This document shows, one piece after another, positions 6,243 through 30,535 of a stretch of DNA of 64,000 nt. The position numbers were made by a program, and so were the translations under genes. Source of the DNA: Kaistia sp. 32K (GTDB lineage Bacteria; Pseudomonadota; Alphaproteobacteria; Rhizobiales; Kaistiaceae); NCBI RefSeq assembly GCF_016629525.1, contig NZ_AP024269.1:2976001-3040000 (forward strand), given 5' to 3'. The notes below the pieces were generated by a model, which made no database searches, had not been told where the DNA came from, and saw nothing but the letters and a program-made list of their open reading frames with translations. Numbering within the stretch: the stretch's first letter is position 1; every line of letters begins with the position of its first letter.

Positions 6243-6255
6243 CGAACTTGCGGTA
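6240..6255. repeat. Short inverted repeat in the divergent promoter
   Basis: TACCG (6240-6244) and CGGTA (6251-6255) form an inverted repeat with a 6-nt spacer, 35 bp ahead of the XRE-cupin start. It could be an autoregulatory operator or chance; the arms are only 5 bp. Confidence 0.3.
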
Positions 6256-6289
6256 TGAGGGTGCTACACCCTGAGTTCAAGGATTACCG

Positions 6290-6877
6290 ATGAAGACGGA
6301 CACTTCGCCTGCGGCCAGCAAGCCACAGAAGCCAGCCCCGAAGTTCGGCGGCCTGATCAAGGAGCGCCGGCGGCAGCTCAACCTGACGCTGGAGAGCGTC
6401 GCGAAGACAGTCGAGCTGACCAAGAGCTTCCTGAGCGACATCGAGAACGACAAGACCTCGCCCTCCGTGGCGTCGCTCGTCCGGCTCTGCGACGCGCTGG
6501 GGCTTTCGATCGGCGATCTGTTCAATTCGACGATGTCGACCGTCGTGCGCGCCGACGAGCGGCCGAAGGTCTCCTTCGGCGGAACCGGCGTCTCGGACTC
6601 ACTGCTGACGGCCAGCAACAGCACGCGCCTGCAGGCGCTCTGGACCGAGATCGAGCCGCTCGGCACGGGTGGTGAGAAGCTCTATTCGCTGCGCGCCGAC
6701 GAAGAGTTCATCCACGTCGTCTCCGGCACGTTGCTGGTGCGGATGGAGAATGAGAGCTTCGAGCTCAACGCCGGGGATTCGATGACCTTCGATCCCCGCC
6801 TCCTGCACACCTTCCTGAATCCCTCCTCCACCGAACGGACGGTCGCGATCTTCGTGATGACGCCGCGACCGTCCTGA
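6290..6877 (+). CDS. XRE-family regulator with C-terminal cupin domain (PuuR-like)
   Basis: The protein is 195 aa. Residues about 20-75 form a helix-turn-helix of the Cro/CI type (IKERRRQLNLTLESVAKTVE, then SFLSDIENDKTSPSVASLVR). Residues about 115-190 form a small cupin barrel (FIHVVSGTLLVRM, ELNAGDSMTFDPRLLHTF). This architecture is that of E. coli PuuR, the putrescine-responsive repressor, and of many amino-acid and amine catabolism regulators. It is divergent from the ABC importer operon and converges on ridA with only 3 bp between the two stop codons. It probably controls both flanking leftward operons through the two similar sites at 6216-6242 and 8619-8645. Confidence 0.88.
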   Translation: MKTDTSPAASKPQKPAPKFGGLIKERRRQLNLTLESVAKTVELTKSFLSDIENDKTSPSVASLVRLCDALGLSIGDLFNSTMSTVVRADERPKVSFGGTGVSDSLLTASNSTRLQALWTEIEPLGTGGEKLYSLRADEEFIHVVSGTLLVRMENESFELNAGDSMTFDPRLLHTFLNPSSTERTVAIFVMTPRPS

Positions 6878-6880
6878 GCG

Positions 6881-7270
6881 TCAGGCGCGCTTGACGGCGA
6901 CCACGTCGATCTCGACGAGGAGGCCCTTGGCGACGAAGCCCGAGACGATGACAACGGTGGAAGCCGGCGGCGGCTCGGGCATCAGCCGGTCGCGCACAGT
7001 CTTGTACGCGCCGACATCGTCCGCGCTGGTCAGATAGCCCGTCACCTTGACGACGTCGGCGAGCGTCAGCCCTTCGGAAGCCAGCAGCGTCTCGATGTGC
7101 TTCCAGGTCAGCTCGGCCTGGCGCTCCGCGCCCTCGGCGATGCTGCCGTCGTCGTTCAGGCCGACCTGGCCGGACAGGAAGACGAATTCGGCATTGGCCG
7201 GCGCGACCGCGACCTGCGAATAGCGGCTCGGCGGCTGCGGAGCGGCGGGCGGATTGGCAAAGCGGATCAT
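6881..7270 (-). CDS. RidA-family (YjgF/YER057c/UK114) enamine/imine deaminase
   Basis: The protein is 129 aa, the family's normal length. It shows FLSGQVGLNDDG near residue 36, the loop AELTWKHIETLLASEG, and the C-terminal segment PEPPASTVVIVSGFVAKGLLVEIDVVAVKR, here with Ser-Thr in place of the common R-x-A-V pattern. RidA enzymes hydrolyse reactive imines or enamines released by amine oxidases and PLP enzymes. The ATG at 7270 has GAAAGG 6 nt upstream. It follows the FAD oxidase gene by 19 bp, so it likely acts on that enzyme's imine product. The substitution in the Arg-containing segment places it outside the best-characterised RidA subgroup; its activity should be treated as unproven. Confidence 0.85.
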   Translation of the reverse strand: MIRFANPPAAPQPPSRYSQVAVAPANAEFVFLSGQVGLNDDGSIAEGAERQAELTWKHIETLLASEGLTLADVVKVTGYLTSADDVGAYKTVRDRLMPEPPPASTVVIVSGFVAKGLLVEIDVVAVKRA

Positions 7271-7289
7271 GATGAGCCTTTCGATGGGA

Positions 7290-8594
7290 TCAGGAGCGGG
7301 AGGGACGATCAAGCCAATCCAGGAAGCGGTAATATTCGCCGATGACGGGAATGAACCACGGATTGCCGGTGTAGCCGGGCACGGTCTTGATCGGATTGAA
7401 GGCGAAAGCGCTTTCCTCGCCGGTGCCGAGGATGTCGCCCGCGAGGCAATTGCCGAAATGGCTCATCAGCGCGACGCCCTGGCCGCAGCAGCCGAGCGCG
7501 TAGTGGACGCCCTCATGCGAACCGAGATGCGGCAGCGAGTCGAAGGTGAAGGCGACGTTGCCGGTCCAGCTATGGGTGACGCCGACATCGGCGAGGCTCG
7601 GGAATACCTCGGCCATCGAGAGGCGCAGCCGGCGCGCGCTTTCGAGCACGCTGATCGGCCGGAAGCTGGTGCGCCCGCCGAAGATCATGCGGCGGCCATC
7701 CGGCGACAGGCGGTAGTAGTAGAGGTTGCGCTTGGTGTCCTGGATCATCCGCTCGCCCGGGATCAGCGCCCGGAGGCGGCCGGGATCAAGCTCTTCCGTC
7801 GCGATGATGTAGCTGCCGATCGGGATGACGCGGCGCTTGAACCAGGAGAGGCCGCCATCCGTATAGGCATTGGTGGCGACGACGACGCGGCCGGCGCGCA
7901 CCGTTCCCTTGGCCGTCGTCAGCGTGAACTGCCCGGCTTCCTTCTTCATCGCCTCAACGCGGCAGCGCGTGACGAAGCGGACGCCGGCCTCGCGGCAGGC
8001 CCGTACCAGCCCCGCGTGATAGCGCGCCGGATGCAGGCCGCCGGCGAAGGTGGTGACGCGGCCGCCGAAATAAAGATCGGAATTGAGCTCGCGCCGCTGG
8101 TCGGCCTTCGCCACCATGCGGGTCTCGACGCCGAGCGCGTCCAGCTGCTCGGCTTCCCGCGCGAGATCGTCATAATGCTTCGGTGCATAGGCGGCGAAGT
8201 ACATGCCGTAGCGCCGGTAGCCGCAGTCAATCGCGTTCTCGGAGATCAGCTTCTCGAGGAAGAGAACCGAATTCTGCGCCTCGAAGAAGATGCGGTCCGC
8301 CCGCTCCTTGCCATAGGTCTTGACCAGCTGCGGGTGCGAGACCTTGAGCGTGCCGGAGACCATGCCGCCGTTTCGCGTGCTGCCGCCTTCGCCGAGTTCG
8401 CCCGCCTCGACGACGAGGACCTGGACGCCCGCCCGCGCCAGCCGCAGCGCGGCGCAGAGACCGGTATAGCCCGAGCCGATGACGGCGACGTCGACGGCGC
8501 CGGACGGCAGAGGTTGATCCTGCCCCCGATCGCGGGCATCCCACCAATAGGGACTTTGAGATATAGCTGAGCTGGTTCCGCCATCGATCAGCAA
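7290..8594 (-). CDS. FAD-dependent amine oxidoreductase, DAO family (PuuB-like)
   Basis: The protein is about 434 aa. The FAD-binding Rossmann motif is DVAVIGSGYTGLCAALRLARAG (about residues 36-57), followed by EAGELGEGGSTRNGGMVSG, which resembles the S-x-R-N-G-G segment of gamma-glutamylputrescine oxidase PuuB. The C-terminal half has GGRTSFRP and ALGCCGQGVALMSHFG. Such enzymes oxidise secondary or primary amines to imines or aldehydes with oxygen as acceptor. The start is set by a strong ribosome site: GGAGG lies 6 nt ahead of a TTG at 8594, whereas an upstream in-frame TTG at 8618 has none. It is the first gene of the two-gene operon with ridA. Confidence 0.87.
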   Translation of the reverse strand: MLIDGGTSSAISQSPYWWDARDRGQDQPLPSGAVDVAVIGSGYTGLCAALRLARAGVQVLVVEAGELGEGGSTRNGGMVSGTLKVSHPQLVKTYGKERADRIFFEAQNSVLFLEKLISENAIDCGYRRYGMYFAAYAPKHYDDLAREAEQLDALGVETRMVAKADQRRELNSDLYFGGRVTTFAGGLHPARYHAGLVRACREAGVRFVTRCRVEAMKKEAGQFTLTTAKGTVRAGRVVVATNAYTDGGLSWFKRRVIPIGSYIIATEELDPGRLRALIPGERMIQDTKRNLYYYRLSPDGRRMIFGGRTSFRPISVLESARRLRLSMAEVFPSLADVGVTHSWTGNVAFTFDSLPHLGSHEGVHYALGCCGQGVALMSHFGNCLAGDILGTGEESAFAFNPIKTVPGYTGNPWFIPVIGEYYRFLDWLDRPSRS

Positions 8595-8618
8595 GACGTT
8601 CCTCCAATTCGCAATCAA

Positions 8619-8645
8619 TTATAAGCGAATAAAGTTCACTTATAA
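8619..8645. promoter_or_regulatory. Operator-like site 2 of the guanidino/amine regulon
   Basis: TTATAAG (8619-8625) and CTTATAA (8639-8645) form a perfect 7-bp inverted repeat with a 13-nt spacer, 25 nt ahead of the FAD oxidase TTG start. Its reverse complement matches 6216-6242 at 19 of 27 positions. It is the likely binding site of the XRE-cupin regulator. Confidence 0.5.
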
Positions 8646-8838
8646 CGAATTACAAATCGGAACAAGACCGGGACGCGCCCGTGCGCGCCGCTTTGGCGCC
8701 CAAGCTTCGGTGCCCCATGCGTCGCACATCGACGCGATCGCCCCGGCCGCTCCTACCTGCCCAACATGACGCATGGTAAAGAAGACCCGGGCGGATGAAG
8801 CCGGCACAGGCCGGCGTCCGCCCGAGGGAGACGACGCC

Positions 8839-9135
8839 ATGAGACAGGTAATGGAACAGGCAGCCCGTCATCAGCTGAAACTAGCGGCGCTGGCCGGCCT
8901 CTTCGCCGCCATCGGGCTGTGGGCCGCCAGCGGCACCAGCGAGGCCGCGGTCTATTGCACCCGGGTCGGCTATCCCGTCGGATGCATCGTGCGGCCGGCG
9001 CCGGTCGTCCGCCCGGCGCCCGTCGTCTATTGCCAGAACGGCGTCTACGTCAAAGGCTGCGTGGCCCGTCGCCCGGCACCCCACGTCGTCTACTGCAAGC
9101 GCGTCGGCTATCCGAAGGGCTGCGTCATGCGCTGA
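8839..9135 (+). CDS. Small secreted cysteine-containing repeat protein, function unknown
   Basis: The protein is 98 aa. A signal peptide covers about residues 1-34 (hydrophobic LAALAGLFAAIGLWAASG, cleavage near SEA-A). The mature part is three copies of a unit of about 16 residues: VYCTRVGYPVGCIVR, VYCQNGVYVKGCVAR and VYCKRVGYPKGCVMR. Each copy has two cysteines eight residues apart, with Pro/Ala-Val linkers between copies. It is likely periplasmic or surface exposed with one disulfide per unit. The ATG at 8839 has GAGGGAG upstream; a longer frame from 8773 would place the signal peptide internally. I recognise the composition from short hypothetical proteins of Hyphomicrobiales but no function. 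Confidence 0.7.
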   Translation: MRQVMEQAARHQLKLAALAGLFAAIGLWAASGTSEAAVYCTRVGYPVGCIVRPAPVVRPAPVVYCQNGVYVKGCVARRPAPHVVYCKRVGYPKGCVMR

Positions 9136-9177
9136 CGCGGCGCCGCAGCGCCACGTCCGGGACGGCAGACCGCCGGC

Positions 9178-11427
9178 TCATTTCGGCTTCATTTCCTCGG
9201 CGAGCGTGGCGAGCGCGCGCTGCGCTTCGCGCGAACCCGTGCCTGCGACGGCGACGAAGATCGTCTTCGCGTCGTTGAAGCGGCGCAGGTGGAAATAGGA
9301 CCAGCCCCGCATCATCATCAGGTCGTTCTGTTCCGGCGCGATGCGCGAGCGCTCGTCGAGCATCAGCAGCGTCTCGATGTAGCGGCCGTCATTGTAGGAA
9401 CCGATCGCGCGCTGCGTCAGGATCTCCCGCTTGAGCTCGATGCCACGGGCAACCGTCTGCTGCGTCGAAGCGGCGGAGGCGGCCGCGAGATCGGTCAGCC
9501 CGGCGCGGAGATAGGCGAGCGTCTTGCCATAGGCGGCGTCCTGCTGGACCTGGCCATAGCTGGTGCGCGCGGCGGCGTCGAAGGCGTCCGCCGCCTCGAT
9601 CGGCCGGTTCAATTCCATCAGGCACCAGCCGCGATTGAGCGCGCTCATGGCGGAGAGCTGGTCGGGACGGATATCGCCCGTGCAGGAACGGCCGCCGCGC
9701 GGCGCGGAGGCGCGCTGCACCGGCCGGGCTTCCGCCGCCGGAGCGCGACGGGGCGCGGCGGCGCGCGGACGCGCCTCGATCCGTTCGACCGGATCGGTAT
9801 CGCCGGAGGCCTCGGCGCTCGCGACATCCGCCGTCTCGACCGCGGCGCCGTCCGGTCCCGGCAGCGCTTCCGCTGCCGGGACCGGACGGCGCGCCTTCGG
9901 GTCCGCCAGCGCCGCGATGCGCGGCGAGCGCGAGCCCCATTCGCTCAGCACCTTCTGGAAGCCGCTCTTGTCCTTGAGCTTCTGATAGGCGAGTGCCAGG
10001 CCATAGGCCGAGGGCTCGTCTTCCGGCATCAACTGCTGCGCCATCGCGAACCAGCGAGCCGCCACGGCCGTCTGGCCGATCTTGTAGGCGTACCAGCCGA
10101 ACTCCTGCGCGCCGGGCGCATATTTCGCGTCGCCGATCGCCTTGGCGATACGCGTCAGCACCTCGCGGTCCATCTTGACCGGAGGATCGACGGCGAGCAG
10201 CGCGGTCGCGACCACCAGATAGGCGTCGAGATTTTCCTTGCCGGCGTCGCGCCACTTGTAGGCGGCCTGCTCGGCCTCGGCCGGGCGCTTCAGAGCGTTC
10301 AGCACATAGGCGTAGCCGCGCGCGATATCCGCCGTGTCGGCACGCCCCTTGGCGAGCTCGTACCACTGCGCGGCACGGGTCGGATCGTTGTGCTGGAACC
10401 AGTAGGCGCCGAGCAGCACCGCGTCGTCCGGCCCGGTGCCTTCGCGCACCAGTCTTTCGACGAGCGCGATGTCGGCGGTCGTCGCCGTCAGGCTCGGATC
10501 CTTGGTCGCGGCGCCGATCCGACGCCGGGCGATGTCGGCCTTGACCGCGGCGAACTCGCCCTGCCCGTCCGGGCCCTGCCGCTCCAGCTTGAGCAGATCG
10601 GTGAGTTCGGCATCGCCGAGATAGCCCATCGCCTTCTGGACGGTGGCGAGACGTTCGGCCGGATCCTGGCAACTGGTCAGGATATAGATGCCGGCGTCGC
10701 GGGCGCGCGCCTGGCGCTCCGTCTTGGCGAACGCCTCGGCGACGCGCCAGAGCACGTCGACGTCGGCGCAGGTGAGCAGGCTCGGCGTCGCGGCGGCGAC
10801 GGTGACGACGGTGTTCCATTGCTGGGCATTGGAGGCGTTGACCAGGCGCTCGCGCGCCTCGCCGACATCCAGCCGCGCCAGCAGGTCCGGCGGCACCACC
10901 CATTGCGGGTTCTTCGCCTGGCGCTCCGCGATGGCGCTGCGGACGGCGGCATACTGCCCCTGCCCGTAGAGCTTCCACATCTGGTCGAGCGCGGGATCGC
11001 CGATCGGCGCCGGCTGCGAGAAATCATCCGGCGGCGTCCAGTCGGGATAGAGCGCGCGCAGGCGCGCGATCTCCGCCTGCAGGCGGCGCTCGTCACCCTG
11101 GCGCGCGAAATAGCGCAGCGCCGTCTCGTCAACGACGGGCGCGGCGGGAGCCGCAGGCGCCGCGGGAGCCGGCTGCGCGGCAGGAGCCGGAGCCTGTGCT
11201 GGCGCAGGGGCTGTGGCCGCGCCGTTCGCCTGCGCGGTGCGCACCGGACGGCCGTCAGCGGCGGAGGTGAAGAAGTCCGACGCGGCGCCGTTCGGGCGCA
11301 CCGGCTGACGCAACACCACCTCGCTCCCGGCTTCCGCCGGGGTGAACAGCTGGTTGAGGAGATACGCTCCCTCGAGGCCGATCACCGCAAGCGTGCCGAA
11401 GATCATCAATTGCTGCTTCACAGGCAT
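9178..11427 (-). CDS. Tetratricopeptide-repeat protein of the cellulose operon (BcsK/BcsC-like TPR component)
   Basis: The protein is 749 aa. A single N-terminal membrane anchor (MIFGTLAVIGLEGAYLLNQL) is followed by a Pro/Ala-rich linker (about residues 65-105) and then helical TPR-like repeats to the C-terminus. Examples are AAQWYELAKGRADTADIARG and DAFDAAARTSYGQVQQDAA. It lacks the outer-membrane beta-barrel that ends E. coli BcsC. Its start overlaps the end of bcsZ by 10 nt, and GGAAAGG lies ahead of the ATG. In type III bcs operons of Rhizobiaceae a TPR gene (named bcsK in the literature, from memory) occupies this role. It probably scaffolds export or assembly of cellulose in the periplasm. 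Confidence 0.75.
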   Translation of the reverse strand: MPVKQQLMIFGTLAVIGLEGAYLLNQLFTPAEAGSEVVLRQPVRPNGAASDFFTSAADGRPVRTAQANGAATAPAPAQAPAPAAQPAPAAPAAPAAPVVDETALRYFARQGDERRLQAEIARLRALYPDWTPPDDFSQPAPIGDPALDQMWKLYGQGQYAAVRSAIAERQAKNPQWVVPPDLLARLDVGEARERLVNASNAQQWNTVVTVAAATPSLLTCADVDVLWRVAEAFAKTERQARARDAGIYILTSCQDPAERLATVQKAMGYLGDAELTDLLKLERQGPDGQGEFAAVKADIARRRIGAATKDPSLTATTADIALVERLVREGTGPDDAVLLGAYWFQHNDPTRAAQWYELAKGRADTADIARGYAYVLNALKRPAEAEQAAYKWRDAGKENLDAYLVVATALLAVDPPVKMDREVLTRIAKAIGDAKYAPGAQEFGWYAYKIGQTAVAARWFAMAQQLMPEDEPSAYGLALAYQKLKDKSGFQKVLSEWGSRSPRIAALADPKARRPVPAAEALPGPDGAAVETADVASAEASGDTDPVERIEARPRAAAPRRAPAAEARPVQRASAPRGGRSCTGDIRPDQLSAMSALNRGWCLMELNRPIEAADAFDAAARTSYGQVQQDAAYGKTLAYLRAGLTDLAAASAASTQQTVARGIELKREILTQRAIGSYNDGRYIETLLMLDERSRIAPEQNDLMMMRGWSYFHLRRFNDAKTIFVAVAGTGSREAQRALATLAEEMKPK

Positions 11428-12482
11428 TGCGCGTGCCTTTCCGTCAGAAAGGACAGAGAGAGGAGATGGAGCGTCGACGGGTAGTAGAGCGTCGGCGTGA
11501 AGGTCTTGAGGTCGTCGGGCACGGGCGCGCCGTCGAGCACGCAGGCGAGCGCCGCGGCCAGGATCCGGTAGCCGGGCTCGTCCAGCTTGTGTTCGACGAC
11601 GTTGGTCTTGACGTTGACGACGGCCGGTCCAGGCTTGCCCGGACCGAGCCAGGCCGTCTTGAACGGTCCGAGCAGGGCCGCATCGGTGATGCCGGCGCGG
11701 ATCATGTAGAGCGGGATGCGGATGGCGTTATAGCCGAAGAGCGGGTCGAAGCCGGTCGCCGGCTCCGGCGTCTTGCCGCGAACCGTGATCCAGTCGGTCG
11801 GCAGCTGCTCCGCGCCGAACCGCGCGCTCTGGATGAGACCGAGCCCGGTGCGCGACAGCGCGGCCCAATCGGTCGCCGGCGCGAGCTGCGCCATGATCGG
11901 CAGCGCCTCGAACACCCAATAGGAGAGATTGACCACCGGGCCGTCCGCCCGCGCGGCGCGGCCGAAGCCGTCGACGCCCGGCAGCATCAGCACACGGTTG
12001 CCGTCCTTGATCACCGTCTCCTTGCCGAGGCTCTCGGCGATCGACACCGCCGCTTTGACGTAGATCGGCTCGTTCCAGGCCCAGCCGGCCTCGGCCAGGG
12101 CATAGGCGATCAGCATGTCGCCGTCGGAAGCGTTGTTGGTGTCGCGGACATGCGGCGCGGTCGGCTGCCAGCTCCAGACCGCGAGCCCGTCATCGCGCAG
12201 CATCAGCTCCGTGCGGGTGAAGCTCCAGATCCGTTCGAAGCCGGCGCGATCGTTGGCAGCGAAGGCGAGCAGCAGGCCATAGCCCTGCCCCTCGCTATGG
12301 CTGATGCCGCCATTCGCGTCGTCGATCACCCGCCCCGAGGGCGCGACGAAGCGCTCGTTGTAGGCGCGCCAGTCGGCGGCCGTGATCGTTCCCTGCATGG
12401 TCAGCACCTCCGCGCCGGAGGCGACGGATGCCGTCAGGCTCAGCGCCGTGAACACGACCGCCGGGATGAGGCCAGACTTCAC
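11418..12482 (-). CDS. bcsZ: Periplasmic endo-beta-1,4-glucanase of the cellulose operon (glycoside hydrolase family 8)
   Basis: The protein is 354 aa with a signal peptide ending near ASVASGA. It has the GH8 catalytic segment GGISHSEGQGYGLLLA with proton-donor Glu64, then ASDGDMLIAYAL and the C-terminal LYYPSTLHLLSLSFL seen in BcsZ. BcsZ trims nascent cellulose during export. The start is GTG at 12482 in a GTGA overlap with the bcsB stop; the open frame further upstream lies inside bcsB and is not real. The 3' end overlaps the TPR gene by 10 nt, so translation is coupled through the operon. Confidence 0.92.
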   Translation of the reverse strand: MKSGLIPAVVFTALSLTASVASGAEVLTMQGTITAADWRAYNERFVAPSGRVIDDANGGISHSEGQGYGLLLAFAANDRAGFERIWSFTRTELMLRDDGLAVWSWQPTAPHVRDTNNASDGDMLIAYALAEAGWAWNEPIYVKAAVSIAESLGKETVIKDGNRVLMLPGVDGFGRAARADGPVVNLSYWVFEALPIMAQLAPATDWAALSRTGLGLIQSARFGAEQLPTDWITVRGKTPEPATGFDPLFGYNAIRIPLYMIRAGITDAALLGPFKTAWLGPGKPGPAVVNVKTNVVEHKLDEPGYRILAAALACVLDGAPVPDDLKTFTPTLYYPSTLHLLSLSFLTERHAQCL

Positions 12483-15199
12483 GACGGCCTCCCCAGGCGG
12501 CGCAGCAGAGCCGTCGTGACGATGCCCAGCACCAGGCAGAGCCCGACCAGGCCGAGCGCGTAGTAGAGGATGTTGCTGGACAGCCAGTTGGCCGCGATCA
12601 GCCGCATATTGCCCAGCGAGAAGGGCTGCGTCTGCACGAAGGTGAACTGGTTGGCCGGGCGGCTCTCGATGGCGTCGGTGGTGGCGTTGAAGGTGCTGAT
12701 GCGACCGCCGAGCTCCGGCCAGCGGGCAATGCCGGTGACGGTCTGGATGCCCGAGACCAGGCGATCCTCGGAGGGCGCCGTGACCATCGTCCACGTCCCC
12801 TCGCCGTTCGGGCTGCCGGACTGAGCGATGATCATCGTCGTCTTGGCAGACGGTTCGAACGGCGGGGTCGCGGCGCTGAAGAAGCTGAGCGTCGAGAAGG
12901 AGATGTCGAAGGTCCGTTTCAGCCAGCCCTCGAGCGCGTTCACCTGGCCGTGCCAGCCGCCGCCGACCAGCTCGTTCTGCCAGCGATCGAAGGTCACGTC
13001 GGTATTCTCGGCTTCGGCGCGCGAGGCCGGCGCCTGAGCGAGTTCGGTGCCGGGCCGCCGCAACACGGCGTCGAGCGGCGCGAAATCATTCGCGGTCGCG
13101 ATGCGCTCGCCGGCCGCCGTCTCGTCGCGCCAGGTGGTGCGGACGGTCTCGGCGATGCCAAGCTGCCCCAGCACATTGCCGGGCATCTGCGCGGCGGCGC
13201 CGATGAACAGCGCGTTGCGATCCCCGACGCTGGCGGCGGGCGTCGGCGCCAGGTCGATCACGCGACCCGCCTGGATCGCCATCCGCGCCAGCAGGCTGGC
13301 GGCGGCGGAATAGTTCTTCGGATCGGTGCGGCCCATCACCAGGGCGGACGGCTCGGTGAAGCGGTTGTACGGCGCGGCCGTGCCGGCGAAGGCGCCGAGG
13401 TCCGGCCGACGCCCGATCCGCGCGAAATTGCCGATCTCGAAGGTCGTGGTGTCGAACAGGACGAAACGCGGGCCGCCCTCGGTCGAGCCGCCCGGCGCGC
13501 AGGCGGCGTCCTCGGCGGTATCGAGCAAAGCATTGATCGAGACGCGGTTCACGCCCGGATGGAAATGCCGGAGCGGGATCTTGATCGGGAACTGGCGGTA
13601 GATGCCGCCCTGCTGGCGCGTGATGCGGGTGGTCGCGGCGATCTGGCCGTTGACGTAGATGTCGATGTGGCTGGCCGGGCGAACGGCGGCGGTATAGGCC
13701 GCGTCGAGCCGCAGCGTCGCCTCGCCATAGGCCTCGGCGTAGAAGTCGGACGGTATGCCGACGGCGAATTCCGTGCGGAAGCGGCGGCCGGAGAATTCCT
13801 GCGTCGTGACGCCGGCATCGAGCAGGCGAAAGCTGTCGCGGCCCATGACGAAGCGAACGTCGGGCGCAAGCCAGGGCGCCGTATTCAAGGTTTTACGCAG
13901 GACGCCGATCGGGCGATCGACGCCGCTGGCGATCTGGTCGATCGCGGAGCCGATCTGCGTCCAGTTGGCGCCGGTCACCACCATCACCGAACGGCCGAGC
14001 GACGGCTCGTCGACGAAGCTGACGATCGGGCGGGAATTGGCGTCGGCCGGCGGCGTCTGCATCAGCGAGCCGAGCTCGCTGCCGACGCCGAGAACGACCG
14101 TGAGCACACCGGCGCCGGCCGGCTCGAGCGCGCGATCCGAGACGGTCACGATCGGATTGGGATAGTTGCCGGCAAGCGTCAGCGCCTGCACCAGCTTCAA
14201 GAGATGCGGCGCGATCGTGGCCTGGTTGCTGCCGGGCGCGATGACGCGGATGGCGGTGACACCGCTTCCGTCGAAGCCGATGGCGGGAAGATCATCGAGC
14301 CCGCGCAGCACCTGCGTCGGCTGTGGGTTCGGCGCGAAGGTCAGCGTCGTGCCCTTGCCGTCGATCTCGGTCCAGAGCTCGTAGGTCGACTGCACCGTGC
14401 AATCGGTGCGGTGGCGCTGGGCGACCTGGAAGCGCACCGTGTTGGCGCCCGCCTGCAGCAGTCCGGGCGGGATCATCGCGGCAACGTCGCGGAACGAATC
14501 CGACGCCGTCAGCGCCGTCTCGAGCACCGCCTGGTTGTTGATCGAGACCCGCAGGAGCGACGCCTCGGGCATGACGACGATCGCGTTCTTGAACGATACG
14601 TCAAGCCGGGCCGGCTGGCCCGCCTGATCGCCGGCGAGATAGATCACCCAGGAATGCTGATCCGTCTCGCCCTCGAGACGCAGCGTCGGCGACGGCACGA
14701 TGAAGCGGCTGTCGGGATTTTCCACCGGAGCCGGCTCTGTCGCGGCCGCGACGACCGGCGCAGGCTCGGACGGCTGCGCGGGCTGTGCCGGCGGCTGGGC
14801 GGGAGCGGGCTGGTCGACGGCTTCGGTCACCGGCGCGGCGGGGGCCGCCGGGGTCAGCACGATCGTCGGCGCTGTCTGCGGCGCAGGGGCCGGCGACGCC
14901 GCGGGTGCTGCCACGGGCGTCTGGGTCACGGCGGGAGCGGCCGGCGCGGCAATCGGTGTCTGTGGCGCAGCCGGTGCAGCCGGCGCGCTGTGCTGCGTCG
15001 GCTCCAGCTGGAACGGAGCGAACGCGCCCTGCCCGGCCGGTGCGCGCTGCGGCGGAGGCGGCGGGGGCGTCGCCGTGCCGGCGCCGGTGTCGACCCGCTC
15101 GCCGCTCATGTCGAACGGCGATGCATTCTGGGCGATGGCCCAGAGCGCGCTGCTGCCGAGAAGACTGACGGCGAGGCCGGTGCGGATCAGCGTTTTCAT
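12479..15199 (-). CDS. bcsB: Cellulose synthase periplasmic subunit BcsB
   Basis: The protein is 906 aa. A signal peptide (about 1-23) leads into a Pro/Ala-rich low-complexity linker to about residue 150. The BcsB body of carbohydrate-binding and flavodoxin-like repeats follows, with segments such as LRVSINNQAVLETAL, DIYVNGQIAATTRI and FHPGVNRVSINALLDTAED. A C-terminal transmembrane anchor (NILYYALGLVGLCLVLGIV) ends in LRRLGRPS. BcsB docks on BcsA and guides the glucan through the periplasm. The start overlaps the bcsA stop (ATGA at 15196-15199). The long N-terminal linker is longer than in E. coli BcsB. Confidence 0.93.
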   Translation of the reverse strand: MKTLIRTGLAVSLLGSSALWAIAQNASPFDMSGERVDTGAGTATPPPPPPQRAPAGQGAFAPFQLEPTQHSAPAAPAAPQTPIAAPAAPAVTQTPVAAPAASPAPAPQTAPTIVLTPAAPAAPVTEAVDQPAPAQPPAQPAQPSEPAPVVAAATEPAPVENPDSRFIVPSPTLRLEGETDQHSWVIYLAGDQAGQPARLDVSFKNAIVVMPEASLLRVSINNQAVLETALTASDSFRDVAAMIPPGLLQAGANTVRFQVAQRHRTDCTVQSTYELWTEIDGKGTTLTFAPNPQPTQVLRGLDDLPAIGFDGSGVTAIRVIAPGSNQATIAPHLLKLVQALTLAGNYPNPIVTVSDRALEPAGAGVLTVVLGVGSELGSLMQTPPADANSRPIVSFVDEPSLGRSVMVVTGANWTQIGSAIDQIASGVDRPIGVLRKTLNTAPWLAPDVRFVMGRDSFRLLDAGVTTQEFSGRRFRTEFAVGIPSDFYAEAYGEATLRLDAAYTAAVRPASHIDIYVNGQIAATTRITRQQGGIYRQFPIKIPLRHFHPGVNRVSINALLDTAEDAACAPGGSTEGGPRFVLFDTTTFEIGNFARIGRRPDLGAFAGTAAPYNRFTEPSALVMGRTDPKNYSAAASLLARMAIQAGRVIDLAPTPAASVGDRNALFIGAAAQMPGNVLGQLGIAETVRTTWRDETAAGERIATANDFAPLDAVLRRPGTELAQAPASRAEAENTDVTFDRWQNELVGGGWHGQVNALEGWLKRTFDISFSTLSFFSAATPPFEPSAKTTMIIAQSGSPNGEGTWTMVTAPSEDRLVSGIQTVTGIARWPELGGRISTFNATTDAIESRPANQFTFVQTQPFSLGNMRLIAANWLSSNILYYALGLVGLCLVLGIVTTALLRRLGRPS

Positions 15200-17400
15200 G
15201 TGCCCGACTTCCCGGCGCTGGCGGGAGCGGCGGCCTTGGCAGGCGCCGCGCGACGGAACGACTTCAACAAGTAGGTGAGCCCGCGTCCGGTCTGGTAGAT
15301 CGAGATGCTGAAGAACCAGATCGTGCCGCGGAGAATTCCGATGTTCGTGCGGCGCGACCACTGGAACTTGGTCCATAGATCGGAGCTGGCGAACACGACG
15401 TCCGAAATCAGCTGGTAGTGACCGGCGACTGACGGCTCATAGCGCACGCCAAGCATCACGCCGTCCGGCGTCCGGGTCATGGCGCGAATGCTGATCGGCA
15501 GCGACTCGGTGGCAATCGGAACATTGGTCTTGAAGCGGACGTCGCAATAGAGATCGCGCGAGATCTCCGGCACCTTCACATTGCCGAGGTTGATGCGCGC
15601 GCCGCCGACAGAGGCATCCTCGATCGTCGCCGGCACGACCAGGTCTCCGACAAGGATCTCGCAGCGACGCTTGACGTCCACGCGACGGCTGGCGCGGCTT
15701 TCGCGCCGTTCCGAGACGACGCCGAGCGCGCAGCCGGCGATGATCAGGTTGAGCAGGTTCCAGCCACCCACCACCATGGCGACGTCGGCCTTGTAGGGTT
15801 CGTTGATGATACGCCACGCAGTCATGCCGACAGCGGCCACCAGCACGAAGAAGATGATGAAGAACGGACGTGACAGCTCGGAGACACGCGCGGTCTCGAG
15901 CGACTCGCTCTTCGCCGTCACCTTGAAGGTCGGCTTCGAGGGATTGAGGATGACCGAGACGAGTGCCGGTAGCAGGTAGACCGACTGCACATACTCATAC
16001 AGCTCCGAGATCCACGGCCAGCGGAAGCGGCCATAGAGGTAGTTCTGCATCATCAGGTTCACGAGCATGTAGGACGCGGTGTAGGCGATGAACTCGCCGC
16101 CAGACGCCGTAAAGATCTCGAGATTGAAGAAGAGGTAGCAGAGCGGCGCGAGCAAGAAGACCCAGCGCGTGATCGGGAAGAACCAGAAGAGCGTGCTGGA
16201 CATGTAGCAGAGGCGCTGCGGGATCGAGAGGCCGCGCTTTCCCGGCGGAAAGCGGAAGCGCAGGATCTGGTACATGCCCTGCGCCCAGCGGCTGCGCTGG
16301 CCAATGAAGGAGGCAAAGGTGGCGGGCTGCAGGCCGGCGATCAGCGGGCGGTCGACATAGACGCTGTGCCAGCCGCTGGCGTGCAGCTCGAGCGCCGTCT
16401 CGGCGTCCTCGGTGATCGACACGCCGGAGAAGCCGCCGGTCTGATCGAGCGCCGCGCGGCGCAGCACCGCGGCCGAGCCGCAGAAGAACGAGGCATCCCA
16501 CTTGTCGAGGCCGCGCTGGATGATGCCGTAGAACATTTCGTTCTCGGACGGCATCGTCTCGAAGGTGCGCAGATTGCGCTCGACGGGATCCGGGTTGAGG
16601 AAGAAGTGCGGCGACTGGACCAGGAAGAGCTTCGGATCTTCCTTGAAGTAGCCGACCGTGTAGAGCAGGAAATCGCGCGCCGGCGCATGGTCCGCATCGA
16701 AGACGACGACGAGGTCGCCCTTCGCATATTTCAGGCCGTTGTTCATGTTGCCGGCCTTGGCGTGCTCGTTGCGCTCGCGCGTCAGGTAGCGGCAGCCCAT
16801 GTCCTCGGCCAGCTTCTGCAGCGTGATCATGCGCTGTTCGGCTTCCTGGGCCGACTGCATGTTTTCCGCGTTGCGCTTCTGCACCGTGCCGCCATCATCG
16901 AGCAGCCAGACGGTCAGCTTGTCGGCCGGGTAATCCATCGCCTTGGCAGCGGCCAGCGTCGTCGCCAGCAGCTCGGGCTCTTCGTTGTAGGTCGGGACGA
17001 ACACGTCGACGGTCGGCAGGTCTGGATCGGACGACGAGATCTTGAGATTGCGCGGCGGATGCGGAAGCATCACCACGAACAAGCTCAGGAACAGCATGAA
17101 GATGCTGTACATTTCGCAGATGTAGACGAGGAAGCCGGGGATGAAGTTCTGCAGTTCGTTGACCGGCGGCAGCGTGCTGGTCGTCCGCCAATAGGCGTAG
17201 CGCAACACGATCGACGTGCCGAGCGCGAGCGCGATCTGACGCCAGACGCCAGCGCTGGTGAAGGTCTTCAACACCATCATCGCGCCGAGCACGGCCGCGC
17301 CGGCGATCAGATGCGTCTGAAGGTTGATCGGCAGGGTGATGAGAAAGACCATCACCAGGCCCACCAGGGCCCAGAGGAGCCCGATGCCGATCCGCGCCAT
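15196..17400 (-). CDS. bcsA: Cellulose synthase catalytic subunit BcsA with PilZ domain
   Basis: The protein is 734 aa, an inner-membrane family-2 glycosyltransferase. It has N-terminal TM helices, a catalytic GT domain and C-terminal TM helices. The GT motifs are DDG (168-170), DAD (235-237), TED (330-332) and QRSRW (368-372). A PilZ domain follows, with R569-x3-R573 and D595-A-S-V-G-G, the c-di-GMP-binding signature. It polymerises UDP-glucose into beta-1,4-glucan and should be activated by c-di-GMP. A diguanylate cyclase is encoded at 48282-49739. The ATG at 17400 has AGGGGG 7 nt upstream. It is the second gene of the operon after bcsN. Confidence 0.96.
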   Translation of the reverse strand: MARIGIGLLWALVGLVMVFLITLPINLQTHLIAGAAVLGAMMVLKTFTSAGVWRQIALALGTSIVLRYAYWRTTSTLPPVNELQNFIPGFLVYICEMYSIFMLFLSLFVVMLPHPPRNLKISSSDPDLPTVDVFVPTYNEEPELLATTLAAAKAMDYPADKLTVWLLDDGGTVQKRNAENMQSAQEAEQRMITLQKLAEDMGCRYLTRERNEHAKAGNMNNGLKYAKGDLVVVFDADHAPARDFLLYTVGYFKEDPKLFLVQSPHFFLNPDPVERNLRTFETMPSENEMFYGIIQRGLDKWDASFFCGSAAVLRRAALDQTGGFSGVSITEDAETALELHASGWHSVYVDRPLIAGLQPATFASFIGQRSRWAQGMYQILRFRFPPGKRGLSIPQRLCYMSSTLFWFFPITRWVFLLAPLCYLFFNLEIFTASGGEFIAYTASYMLVNLMMQNYLYGRFRWPWISELYEYVQSVYLLPALVSVILNPSKPTFKVTAKSESLETARVSELSRPFFIIFFVLVAAVGMTAWRIINEPYKADVAMVVGGWNLLNLIIAGCALGVVSERRESRASRRVDVKRRCEILVGDLVVPATIEDASVGGARINLGNVKVPEISRDLYCDVRFKTNVPIATESLPISIRAMTRTPDGVMLGVRYEPSVAGHYQLISDVVFASSDLWTKFQWSRRTNIGILRGTIWFFSISIYQTGRGLTYLLKSFRRAAPAKAAAPASAGKSGT

Positions 17401-17546
17401 CAGACGCCCCCTGCGAATGCGGACCGCAGCCCGGAAATGATAACGCGAGGCCCGATGCTTCGCGGATGACGGCAAACCCCGGCGAGGCCTTCGGCCCCCG
17501 CCTCAAACTTCCAACGCGCCTCGGCGTCACTGGTCATGTCATGCGC

Positions 17547-25824: not shown

Positions 25825-26098
25825 GGGCGCCGCTAGCATCGAGGAAGGGGAGGATGGCGGGCGGCCTGCCAAGGGACAGGCGCGGCTGGCTGGGGCCAGA
25901 CATCGGACGAATCGCCCGGCATTGCAACCCCTGCCCTCGCCGCATGGAGCCGGGCGGAACGCCCGCCCTTCCGCCAGGCGCGCCCGGCTTCCGGGCACTC
26001 CGGTCTTGAAATCGCCATGCTGATCGGGCTCTAAGAAACCATCCGGCATGCTCGTCCGGAATTGGGGTCGAGACCGGATTCGGGGTCAGGAATTGCGC

Positions 26099-27112
26099 GT
26101 GAACGCTTCAAGACGGCTGTTTCAGCTTGCCCGCCGGTCCGGCCCCGCCGCGCTGCTCGGCCTGACACTGTCCGTCGCCACCGCGCAGGCGCAGGGCGGG
26201 CCGATTCCGCCGGCGGATATTCCTGACGGCGCCGCCCCTGCCGATCCGCTGTCGCTGGCGCCGCTGCTCGTGCCGGAACAGACCGATCCCGCCGCTCTTC
26301 TCAAGACGGGCAAATCCGACCCCGCCGCCCCTCGTCCGACCGAAGGACGCCCCCGGCCCGGACTGACGCTGGAGGCCAAGCTGCTGGATGGCGGCCCGTC
26401 AATTCCGAAGGGCGTGATCTGGCGCGTCTTCGCCAAGCAGCCGGGCGCCGACGGACGGCTGCCGCTGATCCAGGAGACCCAGGGCGGCACCGTCAACCTC
26501 CCGCTCAAGAACGGCGACTACATCATTCACGCCGCCTATGGCCGCGCCGGCACCCTGAAAGAGGTGAGCGTCGGCGGCGGCGAGGAGCATGACACGCTGG
26601 TCCTCAACGCCGGCGGCCTGAAGCTCGACGCCCTGGTCGGCAAGGATCAGTCCCCCCTGCCCAATCTCGTCAAGTTCGACGTCTTCGCGAGCGACAGCCC
26701 GACGACGGAAGAGCGCGCGCCAGTCGTCTCGGGGCTCCGCGACGACGAACTCGTTCGCCTCAACGCCGGCACCTACCACATCGTCAGCCGATACGGCGAT
26801 GCCAACGCCATCGCCCGCGCCGACGTCCGCGTCGAAGCCGGCAAACTGACCGAAATGCGGATGTTCCATCAGGCCGCCCGCATCACGCTGAAGCTCGTCT
26901 CCGAAACCGGCGGCGAAGCCCTGGCGAATACCAGCTGGACGGTGATGACGCCCGCCGGAGAAACCGTCTTCGACAGCGCCGGCGCCTTTCCTGACGCCGT
27001 GCTCGCGATCGGCGACTACACGGCGATCGCCAAGCACGACAACCAGATCCACGAGCGCAATTTCAAGGTCGAGCCGGGCCTGAACCGCGAGATCGAAGTC
27101 CTGACGAAGTAG
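26099..27112 (+). CDS. Predicted secreted protein of unknown function
   Basis: The protein is 337 aa from a GTG at 26099 with AGGA 8 nt upstream; an ATG at 26048 in frame is an alternative. The signal peptide ends near ATAQAQG. A Pro/Ala-rich stretch to about residue 75 is followed by three beta-rich repeats of about 85 residues. Their recurring pattern is LEAKLLDGGPSIPKGVIWRV, KLDALVGKDQ...LVKFDVF and ITLKLVSETGGEALANTSWT, each followed by ...G.Y.I.A.YG or GDYTAIAKHDN. This suggests tandem Ig-like or carboxypeptidase-regulatory-like domains in the periplasm or at the surface. I do not recognise a named family. Confidence 0.7.
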   Translation: MNASRRLFQLARRSGPAALLGLTLSVATAQAQGGPIPPADIPDGAAPADPLSLAPLLVPEQTDPAALLKTGKSDPAAPRPTEGRPRPGLTLEAKLLDGGPSIPKGVIWRVFAKQPGADGRLPLIQETQGGTVNLPLKNGDYIIHAAYGRAGTLKEVSVGGGEEHDTLVLNAGGLKLDALVGKDQSPLPNLVKFDVFASDSPTTEERAPVVSGLRDDELVRLNAGTYHIVSRYGDANAIARADVRVEAGKLTEMRMFHQAARITLKLVSETGGEALANTSWTVMTPAGETVFDSAGAFPDAVLAIGDYTAIAKHDNQIHERNFKVEPGLNREIEVLTK

Positions 27113-27880
27113 CGCCTTCGCCGCATTCGCCGCGGCGTCGGGGTTTCACCGTCCCGGTCCCCTCGACAGCCACCGGGACGCGCAATGCGCGAACTGCCCC
27201 CTCCGGATGCGTGTGCCGGAAGCGGCAAGGCACGGGCTCGCCCGAACGGATGAGCCCGCTTCAACTTCCCGAATGAGGATTCTACTTCGGGACACCGACC
27301 CGCGGTCGTGACCGGCTGTTTCGGCATGCTTTGCCGGCGAAGGGGGACGGCGCCGTCCGATCGGCGGCAAGTCCTTGCAGCGCCGACGCTTCCCTGATCT
27401 GGGAGTCTTACCTTACGGAATCATGATGAAGTCGTGAAGCTCTCACATCTGCGTTACTTCGCGTCATCGAAGAACACGTTTGCCGGAAGCGGCTCCATCA
27501 AACTAATCACGAAATAAAATTCCAACAGTTCGCCAGAAGTCAAGCCCGCAAACTCGATCTATCCACAGGCAATATTCAAGCAATGCCGAAATCGCGCGCT
27601 GCCGTAGAGGAGCCCGCGAGGATAGACGATTCGACCAGGTTAACCGCGATGTATCGCGACCGCGCCTTGGCAAAAATGGCTGAATGGCGATTCAAAGCTT
27701 CCCTGATCAGACAAATCGATTGAATCGTCATTCAATACTTTGCCCGATCCGATCGCGTCCAGCGCTTCAATACACCAATAGGATGAAGTAGATTTTAGTA
27801 GCGCGGAGTTTGGTCCAGGCAGGGGACCTCATTCGGCCGAGTCTATTTCGATTTTTTATTTCGGCTTAGGGGTTAAAATC
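27113..27880. promoter_or_regulatory. AT-rich, gene-free leader ahead of the secreted low-complexity gene cluster
   Basis: These 768 bp hold no convincing gene on either strand. The right part (about 27430-27880) is clearly more AT-rich than its surroundings. It contains an 8-bp inverted repeat CGATTCAA/TTGAATCG (27688-27695 and 27720-27727) and three GANTC sites (27628-27632, 27689-27693, 27722-27726). It also has the palindrome GGTTAACC at 27638-27645, which contains a TTAACC half-site. It probably carries the regulatory region of the gene at 27881. Confidence 0.45.
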
Positions 27881-28828
27881 ATGTTCTGGCGAAGGGATGG
27901 GTCCGCCCATGTTGTTGGGCAGGCGACGAGGTTTGTTGCCCTGGCGGCGATTATCTTGATGACTGCCCCGCCGCTCGCCTATGCGGATCGATCCACCGGC
28001 CGCGGCGGTGGCGGCGGCAGCAGCGGAACGTCAAGCGCATCCAGCCCCAGCCAGTCCGGCGGCGGCGGCTCATCCACCTCCACCAGCGGCGGCGGCGCGC
28101 AAACCTCCCAGTCGGAAGGCGGATCGTCCACCAGCGCCGGCGCTGGCACCAGCGCCACAGCCGGTGTCTCCAACGAAGGCCGCGTGATGCGGGCCTGGTC
28201 TTCCGCGACCGGCGCCGCAGGCGCCTCGGCAACGACGCCGACGGATGAGACATCCGCCACGGCAGGCGTGACGGTGAGCGCCGTCGCCACCGCCGGTGAA
28301 ACACCCACCGCGACCACCTCCGCCGGCTCCGAGACCAGCGCAACCGCAATCGGCGGCAAAAACCCGACCACGACGGCCCAGGGCGAAACCGTCGTCAACC
28401 GGCGCACGGCCGGCGGCGGCTCGATGTCGATCGCCTATACCAGCACGGGCACCTATTCGGTTGCGATCTCCAACCATGTGAGCGCCCAGGCAATGTCCAG
28501 CACATTCGCCGCCGGCAGCGCCTTCACCGCCAAGGACGTTTATTCGGCCGCCCGAAGCGCGGCCACGGCCTTCGCGATGGCGACGAAGACCAATGCCTCC
28601 GCGTGGGCACGAGCCACGGCGTCCGCCACTGGCAAAACCCCGCACGGCATATCGAACGCGCAGAGCAGCGCCTGGGCGAGCGCCAATTTCGGCTCCAATC
28701 CCAGCACTTCCGGTCTGAAGAGCGTCCGGATCACCGACGTCAACAGCCTTCGGGGCGACTCCGCCAGCTGTGTCTGGAGCCAACAGCAGAAGACCCTCTT
28801 CTGCCAGCCCTTCCGCGCAGGCCGCTAG
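27881..28828 (+). CDS. Secreted Ser/Thr/Ala/Gly-rich low-complexity protein 1 (function unknown)
   Basis: The protein is 315 aa. The signal peptide covers about residues 1-35 (FVALAAIILMTAPPLAYA). Residues 36-185 are almost only Gly, Ser, Thr and Ala (for example GRGGGGGSSGTSS and GGGGSSTSTSGGG). Residues about 190-285 alternate Ser/Ala/Thr with aromatic residues. The C-terminus SASCVWSQQQKTLFCQPFR carries the only two mature cysteines. The ATG at 27881 follows TTAGGGGTTAAAATC. It is the first of four similar genes in a row. The composition suggests a surface, matrix or fibre protein, but no known adhesin domain is recognised. Confidence 0.75.
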   Translation: MFWRRDGSAHVVGQATRFVALAAIILMTAPPLAYADRSTGRGGGGGSSGTSSASSPSQSGGGGSSTSTSGGGAQTSQSEGGSSTSAGAGTSATAGVSNEGRVMRAWSSATGAAGASATTPTDETSATAGVTVSAVATAGETPTATTSAGSETSATAIGGKNPTTTAQGETVVNRRTAGGGSMSIAYTSTGTYSVAISNHVSAQAMSSTFAAGSAFTAKDVYSAARSAATAFAMATKTNASAWARATASATGKTPHGISNAQSSAWASANFGSNPSTSGLKSVRITDVNSLRGDSASCVWSQQQKTLFCQPFRAGR

Positions 28829-28869
28829 TCCGGCCTCGCCCAGAAAAACAAGACTGAGGAGTATCCACC

Positions 28870-29208
28870 ATGAGCATCATCCACTTCAGACGCTCAGCCT
28901 CCCTTCTCCCGATTGCCCTTGCCGCGGGCTTCCTGGCCCTCGGTGTCTCCGGCGCACAGGCGAGCAACGCTGGCAGCAAGAGCGACCCATCCGAGGTGTG
29001 GGAGGCCGCCGAGACCCCGCCGCCCGCGGCCGGCATGGCCACGCAGCAGAGCAGCGCCTCGGCCTGGTCCGAAAGCGATGGCGATCACGGCATGTCCGTC
29101 ACCACGACCCAGTCGGGCGACAGCACCAGCTGCATGGTCGTCGAATGGAAGCGGGAGAATGGCGGCATCAAGAGATGGCAGTATCGCTGCGATACGGCCC
29201 GACCTTGA
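28870..29208 (+). CDS. Small secreted Ser-rich protein 2 with C-terminal cysteine pair
   Basis: The protein is 112 aa. The signal peptide ends near VSGAQAS (about residue 32). A short Ser/Ala-rich stretch follows, then SGDSTSCMVVEWKRENGGIK and a tail RWQYRCDTARP with a second Cys. The Ser-x-Ser-Cys start and the Cys-Asp/Gln end of this tail resemble those of the first and third genes of the cluster. GAGGAG lies 8 nt before the ATG. It follows gene 1 by 41 bp. Function unknown. Confidence 0.7.
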   Translation: MSIIHFRRSASLLPIALAAGFLALGVSGAQASNAGSKSDPSEVWEAAETPPPAAGMATQQSSASAWSESDGDHGMSVTTTQSGDSTSCMVVEWKRENGGIKRWQYRCDTARP

Positions 29209-29319
29209 ACTGCCAGGTCTAGGCCGGACCGACCTGATTTCCCGGCAGACCGAAGCGATTACATCCATCGAAATTCATTGCCGTTCCTGCCACCAGGAAC
29301 GATTAGGGGATTTTTGATC

Positions 29320-29901
29320 ATGCGCTCCAGTTCCATCACCAGACTATCCCTCGTGACGTCGGCGGCTTTGCTTTCGATCGTCGCCTTCACGGACGTATCG
29401 ATCGCCGCCGGCTCGGCCTCCAGCAGCAGCGGCAGCAATTCGAGCGCCTCCTCCTCCGGACCCAGCGGCTCGGCCACCGCCTCCAACACCTCGAGCGGCA
29501 ACTCCAATGGCGGCGGCGGCGGCGGATCGGCCAATGCCGGTGCCAATGGCAGCTCGACCAGCGGCGTGACGGCATCGACCTCCGGAACCGGCTCGGCGCA
29601 GGGGCTGGCCTATGGCGGCTCGACCTCGACCGGCAACGGCTGGGACGGCGGCTCCGCCACGGCGACACATACCGCGACCGTCGGCACGATCGCCAGCGCC
29701 TACACATCCGGCCCCGGCGGCGACCCCAGCCAGCTCAACCAGCCCAATCAACCCGCCGCCCCGCGGTCGGTCCTGTCAAGGCTGTTCGGCGGCGGCGACG
29801 GCGGCGGATCGTCATCGAGCGATATCAATTGCTCGAACTTCAAGACCAAGACCTGGAACCAGCAAAGGCAACTTGCATATCAATGCGATTACAGGAAGTG
29901 A
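29320..29901 (+). CDS. Secreted Ser/Gly-rich low-complexity protein 3 with C-terminal cysteine pair
   Basis: The protein is 193 aa. The signal peptide covers about residues 1-29 (LVTSAALLSIVAFTDVSIAA). Residues 30-135 consist mainly of Ser, Gly, Ala, Thr and Asn, with GGGGGG near residue 67. A Pro/Asn/Gln segment (PSQLNQPNQPAAPR) and a Gly/Ser hinge lead to the tail DINCSNFKTKTWNQQRQLAY followed by QCDYRK, with two Cys. The leader TTAGGGGATTTTTGATC before the ATG resembles that of gene 1. Function unknown; likely surface or matrix. Confidence 0.75.
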   Translation: MRSSSITRLSLVTSAALLSIVAFTDVSIAAGSASSSSGSNSSASSSGPSGSATASNTSSGNSNGGGGGGSANAGANGSSTSGVTASTSGTGSAQGLAYGGSTSTGNGWDGGSATATHTATVGTIASAYTSGPGGDPSQLNQPNQPAAPRSVLSRLFGGGDGGGSSSSDINCSNFKTKTWNQQRQLAYQCDYRK

Positions 29902-30069
29902 TTTTCTTTTGAATTTCCAAGATTTTTATCACTAGCAGTTCACATAAATATCAACAGAGTTCATTTCCAATTACGTATTTCTTAGAAATAGAACAAATGG
30001 CATCTTGCTAATTTCTGCAAGACGCCAGAACAGCCAGCGCAATGAACCGTGAACCAAAAGGAGTATATT

Positions 30070-30453
30070 ATGACAAAGTATCGCAATATTCTCATCGGCG
30101 TTGCGACTTCCGCGATCGTCGCGATCTCGGCGTCGGCCGCCATGGCCGGCCAGGCGAGCAGCTCCGCTTCGCAGAACGCGGGCGGCACCTCGTCGACGTC
30201 GTCGAACGCCGCCGCCGGCCTCGGCACGGCTAACGGCGCAAGCACGAGCTCGTCCAGCACCTATGCCAACACCACGACCGCTTCCTCGACCAACAGCTAC
30301 GGCTCGGTTGCGGTGGGTGCGGCTCATGGCCGGTCGTCCGGCGGCGCCGGCAGCGGCTACGACGCCACGGGTATCGGCGCTTCGACGAGTGGCGGTTCGC
30401 ATCAGCGCAGCTCGTCCTCGACGAGCGGCCTCAGCTTCTCGTGGGGCCCGTAG
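30070..30453 (+). CDS. Secreted Ser/Thr/Gly-rich low-complexity protein 4
   Basis: The protein is 127 aa. The signal peptide ends near ASAAMA-G (about residue 27). The remainder is Ser/Ala/Thr/Gly/Asn-rich (SSTSSNAAAGLGTANGAS, SSTYANTTTASSTNSYGS) and ends in SSSSTSGLSFSWGP. Unlike the first three genes it has no cysteine. AAGGAG lies 6 nt ahead of the ATG at 30070, so the frame start at 30049 is not used. It is preceded by a 168-bp AT-rich gap that could hold its own promoter, and followed by a strong terminator. Confidence 0.72.
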   Translation: MTKYRNILIGVATSAIVAISASAAMAGQASSSASQNAGGTSSTSSNAAAGLGTANGASTSSSSTYANTTTASSTNSYGSVAVGAAHGRSSGGAGSGYDATGIGASTSGGSHQRSSSSTSGLSFSWGP

Positions 30454-30499
30454 CAGGATCCCTGCCGCTTGCGACGCCGTGAAAAGCGCCGCAGGCGTG

Positions 30500-30527
30500 A
30501 CGCGGCCGGGGGAAACCCCGGCCGCGT
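30500..30527. terminator. Strong bidirectional-type hairpin terminator between secreted-protein cluster and thrS
   Basis: ACGCGGCCGGGG (30500-30511), loop GAAA, CCCCGGCCGCGT (30516-30527) form a perfect 12-bp stem with a tetraloop. It is followed on the plus strand by a T/C-rich TCTTCTGTTC. It lies 46 bp after the fourth secreted-protein gene and 8 bp beyond the thrS stop, so it can end both transcripts. Confidence 0.85.
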
Positions 30528-30535
30528 TCTTCTGT

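Follow-up and report, generated by a model that had tools for sequence, protein, structure and literature searches.

Four secreted-type proteins encoded together in one Kaistia clade: most likely a clade-specific structural set

Curli subunits CsgA and CsgB are secreted, Ser/Gly/Asn/Ala-rich, beta-prone proteins that are encoded together; curlins are not known to carry a two-cysteine hairpin tail. In the Fap system, FapF is the transporter and is distinct from the fibre. Chaplins, which are hydrophobic and come from Gram-positive bacteria, are small secreted surface proteins, some of them with a cysteine pair. Silk fibroin-type sheets are antiparallel, Ser/Gly/Ala-rich and built on an alternation of Ala with other small residues.

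The window studied here is a stretch of 64,000 nucleotides from the environmental bacterium Kaistia sp. 32K; the host genome is one contig of 5.35 Mb. Four consecutive rightward ORFs form the cluster under study:

27881..28828, + strand: g1, 315 aa, secreted-type, Ala/Ser/Thr/Gly-rich
28870..29208, + strand: g2, 112 aa, secreted-type protein
29320..29901, + strand: g3, 193 aa from its ATG, secreted-type, Ser/Gly/Ala/Asn-rich
30070..30453, + strand: g4, 127 aa, secreted-type, Ser/Thr/Gly/Ala-rich, without Cys

The initial annotation of the locus is correct for the most part, and the coordinates and lengths that it gives for these ORFs, at 27881-30453, are confirmed. Stop-to-start gaps are 41, 111 and 168 bp, and thrS lies downstream, convergent with g4.

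The cluster resembles CsgA/CsgB in that secreted, Ser/Gly/Asn/Ala-rich, beta-prone subunits are encoded together, secretion and beta structure being predictions in the case of the cluster. Unlike curli subunits, g1-g4 give no curlin match: scanned against Pfam and NCBIfam (E up to 1, at hmmscan sensitivity), they revealed no curlin repeats. Among the flanking ORFs scanned, no csgG, csgE or csgF was found. With the models that they contain, the same databases gave no Fap match for g1-g4. No family match to the C-terminal beta-barrel of autotransporters (type V) was found in g1-g4 either, and the proteins differ from autotransporters in being only 112-315 aa long and in ending in a Cys tail or in SWGP, the latter being the g4 C-terminus kept in 6/6 species. 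Streptomyces chaplins share with the cluster a small size, secretion and, for some, a Cys pair, the secretion and surface location of the cluster proteins being putative; they differ in that g1-g4 match no family. It is improbable that the locus encodes a functional amyloid, curli- or Fap-like in its working but new in sequence, in which g1, g3 and g4 would polymerise outside the cell and g2 or g4 would nucleate or cap. The presence of several small secreted-type Ser/Gly/Asn/Ala-rich proteins encoded together, and beta-prone where modelled, speaks for it; against it, neither the four proteins nor the Pfam lists for their aligned relatives show a curlin match, and no secretion gene is found among the flanking ORFs scanned. 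FapF does appear in the Foldseek list of g1, but with E no better than 0.18 and TM no higher than 0.18, which was taken as noise.

All four proteins pass a crude signal-peptide script, in agreement with the signal-peptide-like starts described earlier. Among 199 ORFs of at least 80 aa from the first ATG, six are signal-like with at least 45% S+T+G+A+N counted after residue 30, namely g1-g4 and two others, which on inspection resemble chance frames. By the same count, the S/T/G/A/N content is 68% in g1, 48% in g2, 71% in g3 and 81% in g4. The description of all four as low-complexity proteins thus stands for g1, g3 and g4; it fails for g2, because of its lower content and because a normal conserved domain makes up the second half of the protein. 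Across all species pairs, substitution fractions at codon positions 1, 2 and 3 are 0.242, 0.210 and 0.452 for g1, 0.324, 0.277 and 0.452 for g2, 0.237, 0.218 and 0.497 for g3, and 0.200, 0.182 and 0.374 for g4. The excess at the third position over the first and second is about twofold in g1, g3 and g4 and smaller in g2. Judging from this coding pattern and from ordered orthologues in six genomes, the four ORFs are real genes and not chance frames.

The initial annotation had regarded an absence of clustering in related genomes as telling against its proposal, which survives this test. The cluster is present, with all four genes in the same order between the ORF o26048 and thrS, in 6 of the 14 genomes of the genus (G000, G002, G003, G010, G011 and G012), and the gaps in the other five carriers are 27-43, 73-131 and 164-185 bp. 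The neighbours of the cluster also flank the site in genomes that lack it. o26048 (window 26048-27112, 354 aa), which has no Pfam match at cut-off, adjoins the site in 13/13 genomes where the site is visible. thrS was found in 14/14 genomes. In the one genome where the site is not visible, G007 (a 92%-complete assembly), the contig ends inside thrS, so that the absence of the cluster there rests on protein searches. With matches listed at E up to 0.1, g2 appeared in 12/14 genomes of the genus, six of them strongly (E 4.8e-31 or better). The other six, all in non-carriers and at E 0.026 to 0.085, were dropped as weak, and so were three secondary ones in G003, G002 and G000 (E 0.011 to 0.098). 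A second g1 match in G000 (E 0.006) and a second g3 match in G003, at the place of g4 (E 0.007), each with a stop inside, were dropped too.

A tree of four flanking genes from 13 genomes, with G007 left out and a midpoint root used for drawing only, separates the six carriers from the other seven genomes by a branch supported at 100/100. A single gain within Kaistia, between o26048 and thrS, is the simplest reading. The space between these two genes is nearly empty in three genomes, with 22 bp in G004, 81 bp in G005 and 480 bp, holding a 133-aa ORF, in G009. Four genomes hold other genes at the site, over 2.5 and 3.8 kb (G001, G008) or 9.6 and 9.4 kb (G006, G013). This variability speaks for a reading in which the cluster is just one of the contents that the site can have, and the four are rapidly evolving orphan proteins of the surface with a minor function; in the same sense, no relative was found outside the genus in the genome samples, one low-complexity match apart. 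Against this, each of the 6 group members with a visible site has retained the cluster, and strong constraint acts on the g2 domain and the g1 core; the orphan reading is distinctly unlikely, and it does not exclude a structural role.

Separately, the two genomes with the longest inserts carry at the site a giant gene of about 2,770 aa, Ser/Thr/Gly/Ala/Asn-rich (about 4720-13062 of locus L061 in G006; 5783-14095 of L062 in G013). The end of its product resembles an autotransporter barrel by eye, although Pfam, searched at E up to 0.01, gave no match. An IalB-like gene adjoins it in both genomes (Pfam IalB was tested on the G006 copy).

None of g1-g4 matches Pfam or NCBIfam at curated cut-off, nor do their aligned relatives reach such a cut-off in Pfam. 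LplAB with g1 (E 0.05) and Peptidase_M66 with g4 (E 0.14) are both far below cut-off. For g2 relatives, the Pfam family 'New_glue' (4/31, best E 0.004) was dropped as weak, as were 14 further Pfam families at E 0.011 or worse and, in PHROGs with g2 itself, phrog_23043 (E 0.0058) and phrog_19618 (E 0.061). Profiles of g1, g2 and g3 reached at best E 0.097 against PDB sequences. Fold searches with the g1 and g2 models returned middling matches only, gasdermin pores, methyltransferases and barrels among them, and none was confident.

The genome searches are samples, in which some first-look candidates were scored per genome. Within them, g2 gave 5 matches in 397 genomes of the order, and g3 and g4 gave 3 each in 347, all of them in Kaistia; g3 was absent from 27 sampled genomes of other genera. 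A profile of g1 plus the metagenome protein P0007 matched the window's own genome alone among 385 genomes of the class. P0007 by itself found g1 in 5 Kaistia among 397 order genomes; a stretch of a 1041-aa frame in G034, matching it at E 4e-4, was taken as low-complexity. Plasmids gave no match for P0007 or P0002. In the protein collection, the g1 profile found three proteins (the window's own, P0006 and P0007) from 7996 scored candidates, and a region search with g1 found the window's own protein alone. The collection is a poor guide for g1, because orthologues known from genomes were missed there.

P0007, annotated as a 'hypothetical protein', has 297 aa and comes from a 1051-base contig of a JGI metagenome. 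The six-species profile of g1 detects it at E 2e-5, and as a query it finds g1 of G010 at E 2.7e-9, with an alignment to g1 that runs through both tail Cys. Like g1, it has a signal-like start, an S/T/G/A-rich front and a two-Cys C-terminal tail. Identity is 35-36% over part of the length and 29% over the whole alignment; unlike in g1, the tail is more basic and the Cys spacing longer. As judged by sequence, P0007 points to a wider, unsampled family. P0006, a 168-aa metagenome fragment, is almost the same as G010 g1 in its second half, and its start resembles by eye an out-of-frame stretch of G010 g3, perhaps owing to a misassembled contig.

Residues 83-270 of g1 are conserved and predicted all-beta. 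The g1 model, made from 7 sequences, is all-beta with a mean pLDDT of 63; ten-residue blocks from residue 81 to 270 have pLDDT 69-87, except 65 at 211-220. Ala occurs above shuffled sequences at lags 2, 4 and 6 (z 4.3, 3.2, 2.3) and below them at lags 1, 3 and 5 (z -2.2, -1.3, -2.0). The alternation is weaker for a wider hydrophobic set in g1 (z 2.3) and, for Ala at lag 2, in g3 (z 2.6); it is absent from g2 and g4 (z -0.1, -0.9). Silk fibroin-type antiparallel sheets share with g1 the alternation of Ala with other small residues and the Ser/Gly/Ala richness, a likeness of composition only, for which no homology is claimed. On the other hand, g1 is not a short tandem repeat, and it carries a Cys-pair tail.

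The second half of g2 holds a conserved domain:

29041..29193, + strand: g2 conserved domain, residues 58-108, predicted four-stranded beta-meander, with Cys88 opposite Cys107 by register

Its conservation is 0.87, versus 0.44-0.50 elsewhere in the protein. A search of the protein collection with g2 returned 31 proteins including the window's own, most of them from metagenome sources, and the two that carry an organism name are Kaistia. The domain is recognisable in 31/31 aligned rows, one of which is cut before the second Cys. AlphaFold2, run on the 31 sequences, places strands at 58-67, 73-82, 85-96 and 99-106, with pLDDT 84-91 by ten-residue block over residues 61-110 and a whole-chain mean of 66.

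Two mature Cys lie near the C-terminus of g1, g2 and g3 and none in g4, in 6/6 species for each gene, as the initial annotation had noted for the window. The g2 of G011 has one extra Cys, at residue 16, within the signal peptide. The tails of g1 and g3 are located as follows:

28763..28825, + strand: C-terminal tail of g1 (CVWSQQQKTLFC), containing Cys297 and Cys308 and modelled as a short hairpin at a pLDDT of about 49
29830..29898, + strand: g3 C-terminal tail, from Cys171 to the end, with the second Cys at 189; its last ten columns resemble the g2 tail

Of the two-Cys tail said to be shared by the three proteins, the similarity between tails 2 and 3 holds: their profiles align with an hhalign probability of 82%, which 0/200 column shuffles reached, over ten columns that include a single one of the paired Cys. 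For tail 1, the alignment with either of the others is no better than in shuffled controls (g1-g3 matched by 30/200 column shuffles, g1-g2 by 116/200), and a single tail family for g1, g2 and g3 was rejected. Nor is it a kept rule that Gln or Asp and next a basic residue come after the second Cys: g1 reads C-Q-P-F-R, several g2 orthologues end in CDTAQP and so lack the basic residue, and g3 of G003 stops at the Cys. In its strict form, the pattern KxWxYxC[DE] is found in 2/6 g3 orthologues (G002, G010; counted by eye), and a looser [KR]x[WL]xYxC[DE] in 4/6 including the window's own, with G012 and G003 departing (also by eye). The conservation of g3 is 0.86 in the body versus 0.70 in the tail. 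In G003, the tail of g3 (10169-10726 of locus L038) is largely lost, and the protein stops at the second Cys.

Strand registers were deduced from the predicted strand ends. If residue 96 of g2 faces 99, pairs have i+j = 195, and 88+107 = 195. In the g1 model, tail strands 294-300 and 305-308 give i+j = 605 = 297+308, a suggestive pairing at a tail pLDDT of about 49. Since Cys88/Cys107 in g2 and, at low confidence, Cys297/Cys308 in g1 would be opposite by register, an internal disulfide clamp of the hairpin appears likelier than an intermolecular cross-link. The earlier proposal that the proteins are cross-linked through their tails is therefore not supported.

A clamp of this deduced geometry would work without a partner. 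It would also suit soluble periplasmic or envelope proteins with no fibre role, for instance protective low-complexity proteins in which the disulfide hairpin stabilises the fold. Signal peptides alone lead to the periplasm, and the flanking ORFs scanned hold no exporter or assembly gene; the proteins may therefore stay in the periplasm, which counts against a coat. However, four different proteins kept together across a clade suggest a joint product, and the Ala alternation and long predicted strands of g1 suit a sheet better than a disordered protectant. We consider this soluble, periplasmic role rather unlikely.

Conserved stretches flank the genes in the six-species alignment:

27765..27790, + strand: conserved stretch upstream of g1 (CTTCAATAC in 5/6 species; TG[AC]AGTA in 6/6)
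29940..29966, + strand: conserved AT-rich stretch upstream of g4 (ATATCAACA in 5/6 species)
30499..30528, + strand: terminator-like hairpin that separates g4 from thrS, the two genes being convergent; conserved in six species, two of which show one substitution in the stem

By sequence conservation, the first stretch is a possible promoter or operator and the second a possible separate promoter for g4. A promoter scan gave one promoter-like site, on the - strand. The terminator scan gave 4 terminator-like sites versus 3.1 expected, so the hairpin at 30499 is backed by its conservation alone. Together, these flanking signals are compatible with two possible transcripts, g1-g3 and g4. For an 11-pair hairpin between g3 and g4 (window 29998-30027), inspection by eye shows no clear conservation in the five other carriers.

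A cellulose operon (TPR protein, GH8, BcsB and a glycosyltransferase with PilZ) lies at 9178-17475 of the window, 10.4 kb from g1 and not about 9 kb as given earlier. BcsB was scored at E up to 1e-10 in the 14 genomes of the genus, with a control that rang in 2/14 named genomes. It was found in 12/14 genomes, that is in 4/6 carriers versus 8/8 non-carriers. The joint role with cellulose that had been thought conceivable is thus unsupported, and a partnership was rejected on the co-occurrence of BcsB and the cluster; by this measure, the cluster and the operon are inherited independently. The two genomes in which BcsB was not found, G003 and G011, are both carriers, and cellulose synthesis has possibly been lost there.

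Overall, the locus most likely encodes a clade-specific set of secreted structural proteins. Of the structural-subunit idea put forward at first, the conserved, co-inherited set without a known family remains, and the predicted beta structure of g1 and g2 is compatible with it; cross-linking, the link to cellulose and a single tail family do not, and the part of a variant or cap given to g4 is a conjecture. In the mechanism that we favour, the four-gene set was gained once in Kaistia between o26048 and thrS, and each protein would be exported by Sec, as their starts suggest. Outside the cytoplasm, g1 would form an extended beta-rich structure, g3 and g4 probably likewise, and g2 a small beta-meander, according to the predictions for g1 and g2. 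The C-terminal Cys pair would most likely form an internal disulfide that clamps the terminal beta-hairpin, from the predicted registers in g2, weakly in g1, and by extension in g3, and that provides a stabilised end or a docking face. The joint product of g1-g4 would most likely be a coat, fibre or matrix layer at the cell surface. Of the functions considered for the set, such a role in a coat or matrix is the likeliest, and we hold it tentatively, at somewhat less than even confidence. Its most specific form is an undescribed surface material, namely a four-component, silk-like antiparallel beta-sheet coat or fibre with disulfide-clamped hairpin ends, gained once in one Kaistia clade at a site which in other Kaistia is empty or occupied by different genes, the giant autotransporter-like one included; in that full detail it is unlikely.

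Secreted low-complexity proteins are easily overlooked because they lack a family match. In this case, a real co-inherited set of four genes is shown by synteny, phylogeny and the pattern of codon positions, and g2 offers a small predicted domain that is open to expression and structure solution. If the surface layer is real, bacteria would have in it a structural material that is small and simple in its genetics. If there is no such layer, the locus is still a clean case of a set of secreted genes gained at one site in one clade.
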